Assembly: GCA_015066635.1 (NCBI GenBank)
Contig: SVOA01000006.1
Location: 1 to 64,000, forward strand
Direction: 5' to 3'
Source: Oscillospiraceae bacterium
Lineage (GTDB): Bacteria; Bacillota; Clostridia; Oscillospirales; Acutalibacteraceae
DNA: 64,000 bases
This document shows, piece after piece, positions 33,989 to 37,411 of this stretch; position 1 is the first letter of the stretch, and every line of letters starts with the position of its first letter. The notes beneath the pieces are model-generated. The model made no database searches and was not told where the DNA came from. It was given only the letters and a program-made list of their open reading frames with translations. Made by a program: the position numbers and the translations under genes.

Positions 33989-34339
33989 ATGACAGTTAAA
34001 CGAGGGGATATTTACTATGCAGATTTAAGTCCCGTTATCGGCTCGGAGCAGGGAGGAATGCGTCCCGTACTTATAGTTCAGAATGATGTCGGCAACCGTT
34101 ACAGCCCCACTGTTATCGCCGCCGCCATCACAAGTCAGAAGTACAAGACAAAGCTTCCCACGCATATCAGCGTAAACGCCGACCGCTGCGGACTGCAAAA
34201 AGATTCCGTGGTACTGCTTGAGCAGGTCAGAACCCTCGACAAGCAGAGACTTCGGGAACGTATGGGAAATCTCCCCGACAGCGAAATGAATAAAATCAAC
34301 CGCGCATTATCCGTAAGCTTCGGACTTGTCAGCGGATAA
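33989..34339 (+). CDS. mazF: MazF/PemK-type endoribonuclease toxin (EndoA-like), no adjacent antitoxin
   Basis: The 116-residue protein has VKRGDIYYADLSPVIGSEQGG and RPVLIVQNDVGNRYSPTVI at its N-terminus, and LLEQVRTLDKQRL later. These are the EndoA/NdoA blocks with the basic catalytic residues. It cleaves mRNA at short motifs. In Bacillus the antitoxin gene precedes it directly. Here the 121 bases upstream contain no open frame of useful length, so the partner is missing or encoded elsewhere. It follows acpS and nnr, roughly the Bacillus neighbourhood (acpS-...-ndoA). Confidence 0.92.
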   Translation: MTVKRGDIYYADLSPVIGSEQGGMRPVLIVQNDVGNRYSPTVIAAAITSQKYKTKLPTHISVNADRCGLQKDSVVLLEQVRTLDKQRLRERMGNLPDSEMNKINRALSVSFGLVSG

Positions 34340-34351
34340 TTCAAAAATGTG

Positions 34352-34380
34352 TTGACAAGTAACAAAAACCGTTCTACAAT
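34352..34380 (+). promoter_or_regulatory. Strong promoter of the phage-derived lysis cassette
   Basis: A consensus TTGACA (34352-34357) and TACAAT (34375-34380) have a 17-base spacer. It starts 13 bases after the mazF stop, so the cassette is transcribed on its own. Confidence 0.82.
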
Positions 34381-34404
34381 ATAATGTGCGAGTGAGCGAA
34401 AAAT

Positions 34405-34450
34405 AACACCTTTGAAATCTTACGGTTTCTTAGGTGTTGTTTTAATTTTA
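34405..34450 (+). terminator. Leader attenuator/terminator before the sigma-like gene
   Basis: AACACCT (34405-34411) pairs with AGGTGTT (34432-34438), and GAAATC pairs with GGTTTC inside it. The hairpin is followed by GTTTTAATTTT. It lies between the promoter and the first gene, so some transcription should stop here unless antiterminated. Confidence 0.7.
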
Positions 34451-34469
34451 CCGTGATTAAGGAGGAGTA

Positions 34470-34880
34470 ATGGAACAGCTTATCAGCCTTAATGAGGACG
34501 AATATGTTTATCTTTCGGAAAACCTTGACATCATTACGGACAACTCTCCCGAGCGGCTGCCCGGATACATAATGACCGAAAGAAAGGCGAATTTTAAAAG
34601 ACTTCTTAACCTCGCGCTTGAAACCGAGCTTGACCAAACCGAGCAAAAATGTATTAAGCTCAGGTTTTACGAGGAAAGAAGCATCAGCGAAATTGCCGAA
34701 GCTCTCGGGCTCGGGCGTACGCAGGTTTACAGAATAATCGACAGGGCAGCCGACAAACTGTACGGCTGCTTAAAATATGCGTATTTCTGCGGCTTCGGAC
34801 TTTTAAAGCTGCCCGAGAATTTTGAAACACTCATTAAAAACGGAGGAGTATATGAACACAGTATCATTAAACATCACTAA
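34470..34880 (+). CDS. Sigma-70 region-4-like regulator, phage-type
   Basis: The 136-residue protein has a sigma-region-4-like helix-turn-helix near residues 65-95 (LRFYEERSISEIAEALGLGRTQVYRIIDRAADKL). Its N-terminal part does not resemble sigma region 2 clearly. Small proteins of this kind act as late-gene regulators in phages, or as TcdR/UviA-like alternative sigma factors beside bacteriocin and toxin genes. The start follows AAGGAGGAG. The 3' end overlaps the next gene by 29 bases. A regulatory role for the cassette is inference. Confidence 0.75.
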   Translation: MEQLISLNEDEYVYLSENLDIITDNSPERLPGYIMTERKANFKRLLNLALETELDQTEQKCIKLRFYEERSISEIAEALGLGRTQVYRIIDRAADKLYGCLKYAYFCGFGLLKLPENFETLIKNGGVYEHSIIKHH

Positions 34881-35922
34881 AGGAAATTTTGAAAACAGCG
34901 TTATAAATGCGGGCGTTATGTATGAGCATAAAAACACACTGCTTGAATTAACTCTTGACCCCGAGTACATAGACCCCGATTACAGCTATTATCTGACGTT
35001 TGCCATGCCCTCGGGAATTGCAAGGACAGACTATCTCGAACCCGACGGAAACGGCGTAATTTCGTACCTTATACCCAATACGGTTACGGGAAATATGGCA
35101 GTTCTCTGCGCGCTCAATATCGTTAAAATCAACCCCGAAACAAACGAAACGGAGCTTGTCATCAAGCCTGCCGAAATACGCCTTATGTTCTCATCCGCGT
35201 CGGGCAGCGACGACGGTCTTTGCAGGGAATACGATTTCTCGGTAAACGCCTTGCTTGAAGGCATAAAAAACGGCACCTTCAAGGGAGAGAAGGGGGACAA
35301 AGGCGACAAAGGGGACAAAGGGGACAAGGGAGATATGGGCGAGTGCGGCGTTACCGTTGACGGCGAATTGTCCGCCTCCAGCGAGAACCCCGTGCAGAAC
35401 TGCGTTGTTAAGTCGGAGCTTGACAGTCTCAGAAGCTATACCGACACAAAGAGCGCAGAGGGCAAATTAAGGCATATTGCTTCGGGAGAAATAGCGTCGG
35501 GCGAAACGCTTACCCAGTTGACAATAAACCGCGACGCAAATAACGGGATGTTCTTTCTCAGACACGCCGTTTTAAGGCTTCAGCTCAGAATTGATGAGCC
35601 TTCGGTACAGCTTACTTTGAGAATAAGGACAAACAACGGTCAGCGCTATCTCTGCTATAAAAAGCTTTCGTACCGTTCAAACACGAGAGTTTACTGCGAA
35701 TCCGACTGCAGCATACCCTTCGGTATGACAAAGACAACGAATACGATATTTACAAGTTCCTCTTCCTCGGCGCAGGGTACGACGGAGAGCAACGGCTGTT
35801 CATTTATCGCAAATCATGAGAACAGTGTCGCCGAAATATCCGATATTGAGGTTTTCTTCCTTAACGGAAGTGAATTTGTAACCCTGCTTCCCGGCACTAA
35901 ATACGAACTCTGGGGGTATTGA
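34852..35922 (+). CDS. Phage-type fibre/baseplate protein with collagen-like repeat
   Basis: The 356-residue protein has an N-terminal domain like the BppU/DUF2479 baseplate family (NTVSLNITKGNFENSVINAG through about residue 125). Seven G-x-y triplets follow near residues 145-165, mostly Gly-Asp-Lys, a trimer-forming collagen-like spacer. The C-terminal beta-rich half ends at TKYELWGY and is probably a receptor- or sugar-binding head. Such proteins attach phage tails to cell surfaces. No tail genes are present here. The start follows GGAGGAG inside the upstream gene. Confidence 0.78.
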   Translation: MNTVSLNITKGNFENSVINAGVMYEHKNTLLELTLDPEYIDPDYSYYLTFAMPSGIARTDYLEPDGNGVISYLIPNTVTGNMAVLCALNIVKINPETNETELVIKPAEIRLMFSSASGSDDGLCREYDFSVNALLEGIKNGTFKGEKGDKGDKGDKGDKGDMGECGVTVDGELSASSENPVQNCVVKSELDSLRSYTDTKSAEGKLRHIASGEIASGETLTQLTINRDANNGMFFLRHAVLRLQLRIDEPSVQLTLRIRTNNGQRYLCYKKLSYRSNTRVYCESDCSIPFGMTKTTNTIFTSSSSSAQGTTESNGCSFIANHENSVAEISDIEVFFLNGSEFVTLLPGTKYELWGY

Positions 35923-36193
35923 TACGGATAATATTGCGACAGCTCTCATAACGGGGGGACTTGCCCTTGTCGGCGTGATAATAACAAATGCAGTCAATGC
36001 GAGAAACGTCAACAGAAGCATTGAAAATCAGCTCAGAATCAGTCAGGCCGTAACCGATACAAGACTTTCCGAGCTGACAAGAGAGGTCAGAGAGCACAAC
36101 AACTTTGCACGGCGTATGCCCGTTCTCGAGGAGCAGATAAATTCTCTTGAACGCCGTGTTACTCAAATCGAAAGAAGGAAAATTGATATATGA
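35918..36193 (+). CDS. Phage small membrane protein (XhlA-like position), probable ATT start
   Basis: From ATT at 35918 the frame encodes 91 residues. A hydrophobic segment near residues 6-22 (IATALITGGLALVGVIIT) is followed by a charged coiled coil with TDTRLSELTREVREHNN, a block common in small proteins next to phage holins. The first ATG/GTG/TTG in frame is GTG 35975, which would cut the membrane segment. ATT overlaps the upstream stop as ATTGA, a coupled arrangement. The stop overlaps the holin ATG by four bases. Confidence 0.68.
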   Translation: MDTDNIATALITGGLALVGVIITNAVNARNVNRSIENQLRISQAVTDTRLSELTREVREHNNFARRMPVLEEQINSLERRVTQIERRKIDI

Positions 36194-36441
36194 AATTAAA
36201 CTTCAGAGCAAGACTTCATAACAGGGCCTTTGTAATAACAATGTCCACGGCAGTTATCGCCTTTGTTTATCAGATACTGTCGCTCGTCGGCATAACTCCG
36301 CGCATCAGCGAGGAGAGTACGGTACAGCTCGTAATGCTTGCGGTAAATATTCTCTGCGCTCTCGGTGTGTTTATAGACCCCACTACCGAGGGTATCAGCG
36401 ACTCGGAACGCGCCATGAAATATTACTCATCCGAGGAATAA
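36190..36441 (+). CDS. Phage holin, phi-LC3 type
   Basis: The 83-residue protein has the MKLNFRARLHNRAFVITMSTA opening, two membrane segments and the ending GVFIDPTTEGISDSERAMKYY, which are the features of the phi-LC3 holin family. It would permeabilise the membrane and let the GH25 lysozyme reach the wall. The start overlaps the upstream membrane protein, and the lysozyme gene follows 55 bases later. Confidence 0.88.
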   Translation: MKLNFRARLHNRAFVITMSTAVIAFVYQILSLVGITPRISEESTVQLVMLAVNILCALGVFIDPTTEGISDSERAMKYYSSEE

Positions 36442-36496
36442 AAACGGTTTTTTTAAAATATAAATAATACAAGACCCGTTTGAAAGGAGTGTCATA

Positions 36497-37348
36497 ATGG
36501 CAAACGGAATTGATGTAAGCAAATATCAGGGAAATATTGATTTTACGGCTGTGAAGCAGGCGGGTACGGATTTTGTGATTATACGCGCGGGTTACGGCAA
36601 ATACGGCAGTCAGAAGGACCCTATGTTCGAGACCAATTACAGAAACGCGAAAAAGGCGGGACTGAATGTCGGTGCCTACTGGTACAGCTATGCTAAGTCG
36701 GTCGAGGATGCAAAAAAAGAAGCGGAGGTCTTTCTTGAAATAATAAGGGGCAAGACTTTCGAGATGCCCGTTGCCTATGATGTGGAGGAGAGCGCGCAGG
36801 CACAGAAGGGCAAAAAGTTCGTTTCGGACGTTGTCAGAGCCTTTTGCGAGAGGATGGAATACAGCGGCTATTTTGTCAGCGTATATGCAAATAAATTCTG
36901 GCTTGACAACTACATTGACGACGACGTCAAGAGAAAATACGACATCTGGCTTGCGCAGTGGAGCAGCGTGCCGACCTACACGGGAAAATACGGTATGTGG
37001 CAGAATTCCTCGTCGGGCAGGGTAAACGGAGTTTCGGGCAGATGCGACACCGACATTTCGTATAAGAATTATCCCGCTATTATGCGTGAATATGCTCTCA
37101 ACGGCTTTAAGCCGCAGAGCCCGTCGAAGCCCCTGTCAAAGGGAACCGTAATCTCTCTTTACAACACGCCCGTCTATATCTCAGCCACGGCAAAGCTTCC
37201 CGCGACAAAAAAGAGCGGGACCTACTACATTTACGACGGCATCGAGATAAACGGCAGATACCGCATAACAAACAGCGTGGAACGCGTAGGAAAGAAACCC
37301 GAGAGCAAATATGTTACGGGCTATGTGAACGCCTCCGACATAAGATAA
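36497..37348 (+). CDS. GH25 lysozyme (phage-type endolysin)
   Basis: The 283-residue protein has a GH25 muramidase domain in residues 1-200: MANGIDVSKYQG with a catalytic-pocket Asp6, VIIRAGYGKYGSQKDP, VAYDVEE with the catalytic acids, and WLAQWSS. A C-terminal SH3-like wall-binding region spans about 215-283. No signal peptide is present, so it depends on the holin for export. It cleaves the MurNAc-GlcNAc bond of peptidoglycan. It ends the cassette before a terminator. Confidence 0.92.
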   Translation: MANGIDVSKYQGNIDFTAVKQAGTDFVIIRAGYGKYGSQKDPMFETNYRNAKKAGLNVGAYWYSYAKSVEDAKKEAEVFLEIIRGKTFEMPVAYDVEESAQAQKGKKFVSDVVRAFCERMEYSGYFVSVYANKFWLDNYIDDDVKRKYDIWLAQWSSVPTYTGKYGMWQNSSSGRVNGVSGRCDTDISYKNYPAIMREYALNGFKPQSPSKPLSKGTVISLYNTPVYISATAKLPATKKSGTYYIYDGIEINGRYRITNSVERVGKKPESKYVTGYVNASDIR

Positions 37349-37375
37349 TCGGGAATCGGAATAATTCATAAAAAA

Positions 37376-37411
37376 GCGCTTTTTCCGTTACGGCGGAAAA
37401 GGCGTTTTTTT
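37376..37411 (+). terminator. Terminator of the lysis cassette
   Basis: The stem CGCTTTTTCCG/CGGAAAAGGCG (within 37377-37404, one G-U pair) with a short loop is followed by T7. Confidence 0.88.

Follow-up and report, generated by a model that had tools for sequence, protein, structure and literature searches.

A 64,000-nucleotide window of an Oscillospiraceae bacterium genome (Acutalibacteraceae; assembly GCA_015066635.1, contig SVOA01000006.1, positions 1 to 64,000) carries a compact cassette of five phage-related genes, encoding a sigma-like regulator (hereafter SIG), a fibre protein, an XhlA-like accessory protein, a holin and a GH25 endolysin. The cassette is probably locus II, the part providing lysis and fibre functions, of a domesticated phage-like particle that is vertically inherited and resembles a gene transfer agent (GTA), with the head locus (locus I) located elsewhere in the genome. 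Judging from sequence, architecture and conservation make a GTA the most likely class for this system. A preliminary description of the window had presented the cassette as self-contained; instead, a head locus is present elsewhere in the same genome and in 36/39 sampled genomes of the genus. An isolated lysis cassette is thereby tied to its missing head locus and would be half of a probable DNA-packaging machine.

The genus sample comprised 39 genomes, namely the window's own genome (G000) and 38 others, one of which (G025) matches a Candidatus Fimenecus excrementavium record at 100% identity across 3,999 bp; NCBI places this taxon in Clostridia incertae sedis. SIG was found in 38 of the 39 genomes, the exception being G005 (85% complete), and 36 genus cassettes were analysed after exclusion of two loci in which the gene caller had missed SIG (L034 in G002 and L057 in G037). 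The family sample comprised 120 genomes from 119 genera. Sequence matches among relatives were taken from the best 80 of 571. We found no printed account of loci of this kind in this genus in the open-access literature (preprints were outside the scope).

Two conserved loci in separate places

G000 has one head locus outside the window, consisting of TerS, TerL, portal, protease and HK97-type capsid genes and three small genes. It is divided between two contigs, occupying C16 from about 17.8 kb onwards and C25 from about 13.5 kb onwards, up to the contig end in each case; the two ends overlap by 116 bp at 99.1% identity inside the capsid gene, at an assembly break. TerS matched Terminase_2 (3e-13) and TerL matched Terminase_6N (3e-17), and the G029 homologues of the portal and capsid matched phrog_30703 (1.5e-122) and phrog_3922 (2.7e-98), respectively. 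Single matches to the Pfam portal family, most of them weak, occurred in 21/39 genus genomes, and the Pfam capsid family (PF05065) matched 7/39, in G027 just behind the portal match. A capsid profile search identified the head locus in 36/39 genus genomes, G000 included; the capsid was not found by this search in G016 (81% complete), G036 (68%) or G031 (96%), and TerL was not found in G031 or G036 and gave a marginal match in G016. In G035 the capsid gene is present only as contig-end pieces, with a full TerL. The absence of capsid, portal and terminase genes reported in the preliminary description thus stands for the window and fails for the genome.

Head and baseplate profiles, scanned over the window and 40 further cassette loci (L031-L070; 755,555 bases), found nothing in 39 of the 41 loci. 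The two exceptions (L036 in G023 and L069 in G053, which belongs to another genus) have the same kind of head locus close by, at distances of about 9 kb and 10 kb from the cassette, respectively. All remaining genus genomes with both loci have them on different contigs. The named neighbours of the head locus in G000 are cellular (PHP, hydrogenase, HATPase and DRTGG genes and glgB), as are six head-locus neighbours in G034, and the glycogen (glg) operon lies within the fetched head-locus stretch in 10 of 18 genus genomes. The named neighbours of the cassette in G000 are also cellular (acpS, nnr, mazF and a sugar transferase gene), and DNA similarity to phages was limited to three short matches.

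Co-occurrence within the genus is uninformative because both loci are nearly universal there. In the family sample, the capsid was detected in 63/120 genomes, always as a single copy except in G000, where the gene is split. SIG was counted as present at E<1e-9, and several thresholds were tried because the matches at E<1e-3, which occur in 120/120 genomes, must take in ordinary sigma factors. Both proteins were detected in 49 genomes, the capsid only in 14, SIG only in 6 and neither in 51 (p = 2.5e-14, ignoring phylogeny). Protein distances were correlated across the 27 genus genomes having SIG, GH25 and capsid proteins (Mantel r of 0.59 for SIG and capsid and 0.56 for GH25 and capsid; 0/2000 permutations each). 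Both loci are under purifying selection: pairwise NG86 ratios of nonsynonymous to synonymous substitution rates (dN/dS), taken from pairs where they were computable and with dS >1 in many pairs, were 0.09-0.28 for SIG, 0.03-0.12 for GH25, 0.14-0.35 for the fibre and 0.03-0.25 for head genes. The near-universal single copies and correlated distances show that the structural genes are kept in the chromosome and vertically inherited, as in a GTA. The arrangement also follows the plan of FpGTA, the GTA of Faecalibacterium, with a head locus and a separate locus for receptor-binding protein, holin and endolysin (the fibre being present in 26/36 cassettes).

Baseplate J was detected in 2/39 genus genomes, both times weakly, and not in the other 37; Sipho_tail was found in just 1/39 and a tape measure in 5/39 genomes (G000 is not among them); the five genomes concerned all have a PF05065 capsid match as well. 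Baseplate profiles had no match in any of the 41 cassette loci; sheath was not searched for. In several other genera, the head locus extends into a group of baseplate genes (LysM protein, hub, sheath-initiator-like protein, baseplate J and Gp48-like protein), beside which no sheath or tape measure was recognised.

Relatives of the capsid gene are also present on 360 IMG/VR contigs, and among the best 80 of 360 (L251-L330), 73 are shorter than 15 kb. The GenBank "Bacteriophage sp." record MT835508.1 (L384) is a piece of chromosome in which the head locus lies close to rpoA, secY and further genes from that part of the chromosome. MT835647.1 (L385), likewise labelled "Bacteriophage sp." and derived from a faecal sample of the same type, contains the cassette; its fibre closely resembles the one in G006, and the genes after the cassette appear cellular on visual inspection. 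Some records classified as viral in databases may be the chromosomal head locus.

Composition and regulation of the cassette

The promoter, leader hairpin, five intact genes (all on the same strand) and terminator were confirmed in the window (Table 1); one terminator scan picked up just the minus-strand counterpart of the terminator. The gene set recurs in relatives, with SIG, accessory protein, holin and endolysin in 36/36 genus cassettes and the fibre in 26/36. SIG frames are intact in all 36 and endolysin frames in 35, the one broken copy being in L042.

Table 1. Cassette features and their positions in the window.
Feature	Position	Strand	Remarks
Promoter TTGACA-17-TACAAT	34352..34380	+	11/12 consensus match; same element in relatives
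Leader hairpin with T-rich tail, attenuator-like	34400..34449	+	Hairpin itself 34400-34443, z -8.1
SIG, region-4-only sigma-like regulator	34470..34880	+	38/39 genus genomes
Fibre (N-terminal anchor, GEKGDKGD collagen-like stalk, variable tip)	34852..35922	+	26/36 genus cassettes
XhlA-like membrane/coiled-coil accessory protein	35918..36193	+	phrog_1863
phi-LC3 type holin	36190..36441	+	Hol44 type in its place in 34/36 genus cassettes
GH25 endolysin	36497..37348	+	36/36 genus cassettes, one broken
Intrinsic terminator	37370..37411	+	z -6.6

The accessory protein is of the window's type in 8 cassettes and of a second XhlA-like type in 28, and the holin is of the phi-LC3 type in 2 and of the Hol44 type, in the same slot, in 34; an SPP1-type holin is found together with an amidase in G053. 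Five of the accessory or holin genes were called short; in each, the open frame extends further upstream and contains start-like codons there. This exchange of holin and endolysin types with function retained argues for selection on lysis itself. The sigma-like regulator fits with the lysis of producer cells, as had been suggested. Release of the fibre does not appear to be the core purpose of the cassette, because the fibre is missing from 10/36 cassettes and the other four genes are present in all of them. The start of the window's accessory protein is probably an ATT codon that overlaps the fibre stop (ATTGA).

About 140 amino acids at the N terminus of the fibre form a conserved anchor; the tip varies by species and in one case is a GDSL esterase domain. 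At four loci of other genera (L135, L136, L137 and L143), a fibre-like domain is seemingly joined to the last small head gene, which would fit a fibre mounted on the connector.

The only sigma domain in SIG is region 4. Fold comparison returned sigma region 4 domains, and other folds are not ruled out by their non-appearance. SIG has a C-terminal extension that by eye resembles a helix-turn-helix domain at three loci from three other genera (L067, L068 and L069).

A LexA-type box, GAACNNNNGTTC, is located near the promoter in 30/36 genus cassettes and 1/3 cassettes from other genera (31/39 together, compared with 0.14 expected by shuffling). The Bacillus subtilis LexA consensus, as given in PMC4234289, is the same as this box. 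The related pattern CGAACNNNNGTTC has forward counts of 3, 5 and 3 in G000, G034 and G022, respectively, compared with 45, 25 and 11 for the reversed control, and its sites include one before recA (G034) and others near Y-family polymerase genes (G000 and G022). We interpret GAACNNNNGTTC as a LexA box because of this rarity and these locations. In G022 and G034 (L378 and L382), a LexA-type box precedes a second small coiled-coil gene, which by eye resembles the gene that follows SIG in other cassettes.

A terminator-like leader hairpin was identified in 28 of 34 genus cassettes, L060 and L064 being excluded from this count over their start calls. Some head operons have an upstream hairpin together with a common element, CTATGGGTGAAAGG, which matched at 11/14 positions or more in 27 of the 111 upstream regions with enough sequence (from 199 loci) and in 2/111 shuffles. 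This result is merely suggestive, as the consensus was derived from the same set of sequences; the element has no match in the window. SIG might conceivably act at the CTATGGGTGAAAGG element of head operons.

The gene immediately preceding the cassette encodes a MazF/PemK protein (window positions 33989-34339), and G042 (L343) has a similar one about 1 kb behind a SIG-like pair.

Proposed mechanism and alternatives

In the mechanism that we propose, the promoter of locus II would respond to a signal, which for most of the genus would be DNA damage acting through LexA and may be another in the window's own clade, and the leader terminator would dampen leaky expression of the locus. SIG, having region 4 without region 2, would assist RNA polymerase at GTA promoters, possibly at the shared element before the head operon. 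Terminase would pack host DNA into small capsids of which the fibre may form the receptor-binding part, and the XhlA-like protein, holin and endolysin would together lyse the producer, freeing the particles.

Several observations weigh against this interpretation. Neither a particle nor packaged DNA was seen in the genus here, and three family searches gave no baseplate or tail in most of the genus, which leaves the delivery of DNA unexplained. In G031 (96% complete) the cassette is present and neither TerL nor capsid was found, and G005 has head genes without a SIG match. In the family, 14/63 capsid-positive genomes lack a good SIG match, 6/57 capsid-negative genomes have SIG, and the co-occurrence p value disregards shared ancestry. 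SIG-like genes of other genera often have a small coiled-coil gene as their partner, in 3 kb loci that contained no recognised lysis gene. No LexA-type box is present at the window's own promoter or at those of five close relatives, and known SOS genes are lacking at several of the box sites in G000 and at some in G034 and G022. The neighbours named in G000 and G034 are all cellular, but no search aimed at integrase or replication families was made.

It is unlikely that the head and fibre proteins form a killing particle like PBSX, released by lysis to kill kin instead of moving DNA. PBSX particles take up random host DNA of about 13 kb and the element includes the sigma-like protein Xpf, and the fibre tips in the present genus vary as receptor-binding proteins do. 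However, the loci contain no recognised sheath or tape measure (sheath not having been searched for), the five tape measures in the genus all accompany a PF05065 capsid and both baseplate J matches are weak; without a tail, a tailocin mechanism is hard to envisage. We regard as quite improbable a stand-alone lysis or export module, in which the regulator would turn on holin and endolysin and release the fibre or other cytoplasmic proteins with no particle involved. The separation of cassette and head locus in most genomes is consistent with such a module, as are the state of G031 and the reported release of proteins by holins without phage; the fibre's absence from 10 cassettes, the co-occurrence of SIG with the capsid and the correlated distances between the cassette proteins and the capsid argue against it.

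Capsid-forming islands (cf-PICI) are satellites that make their own head and take the tail of a helper phage. Head genes without recognised tail genes would suit such a satellite (no search for integrase families was made), but the single-copy head locus, the glg operon and cellular genes beside it, the separate place of the lysis genes, and the contrast between capsids in 36/39 genomes and PF05065 capsids or tape measures in 7/39 and 5/39 make it very improbable. Remnants of decayed prophages are barely conceivable. The genes do belong to phage families and one endolysin is broken, but dN/dS values well below 1 at both loci (0.03-0.35) and the intact frames indicate genes under selection, in line with the earlier view that this is not simple prophage decay. 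Among the SIG and endolysin genes of the 36 cassettes, a broken frame is confined to that one endolysin, and the cassette is not one end of complete prophages, since head and baseplate profiles were empty in 39/41 loci and the other two have a head locus of the same type nearby; a prophage end or remnant was rejected on these grounds.

The GTA-like system is kept by nearly every sampled species of the genus and, by the capsid marker, in about half of the sampled family genera. A broader proposal, tentative though quite possible, is that a single ancient GTA is present in 62 of the 119 sampled family genera, switched on by SIG, released in most of the genus through LexA-controlled sacrificial lysis, and pared down to head and fibre without tail or baseplate. 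In that case, DNA would be delivered in a novel manner.

Comparison with known systems

TcdR-TcdE, UviA-UviB and type 10 secretion, to which the preliminary description had likened the cassette, combine a sigma-like regulator with a holin, or a holin with an endolysin. We know of no capsid locus in these systems. Their cargo gene is central, whereas the candidate cargo here, the fibre, is dispensable, and they fit less well than a two-locus GTA. PBSX of Bacillus subtilis is one contiguous element. Like the GTA proposed here, it is described in the excerpts available as packaging random host DNA on induction by DNA damage and as having the sigma-like Xpf; Xpf is listed there with sigma regions 2 and 4, whereas SIG has region 4 only.

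The particles of RcGTA and CcGTA, from Alphaproteobacteria, are tailed. Both systems have dedicated activators, CcGTA employs anti-termination together with accessory genes at other genomic sites, and GafA is tentatively similar to sigma DNA-binding domains (PMC11150451, PMC9638019). They resemble the present system in having dedicated activators; those regulators are not known to be related to SIG.

The closest likeness in layout, as distinct from sequence homology, is to FpGTA (Nat Commun 2026; PMC12946183, the only open-access paper on it that we found), with which the loci of the genus holding Candidatus Fimenecus excrementavium share the same two-locus plan. In the available excerpts of that paper, a head operon (TerS, TerL, portal and capsid) lies apart from a 5.5 kb operon for holin, endolysin and a tail fibre or receptor-binding protein; the capsids measure about 40 nm, have no identifiable tails and package random host DNA of 8.4-8.9 kb, lysis occurs in late stationary phase, and packaging is reported and transfer is not (PMC12946183). 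Locus II of FpGTA occurs in 5/12 strains, compared with 38/39 genomes for the SIG-headed locus here, and is annotated with a baseplate, whereas baseplate J was undetected in 37/39 genomes here (the authors' baseplate was not compared by sequence). The authors call GTAs likely SOS-inducible, and the excerpts name no regulator or LexA box ("sigma" occurs once; PMC12946183), in contrast to SIG and the LexA-type boxes here. New in the present system are the region-4-only sigma-like protein heading the locus, the LexA-type box in most genus cassettes, the holin and endolysin swaps and the lack of a detectable baseplate J in nearly all genomes. A regulator and an inducing signal can be proposed for GTAs of the FpGTA layout.

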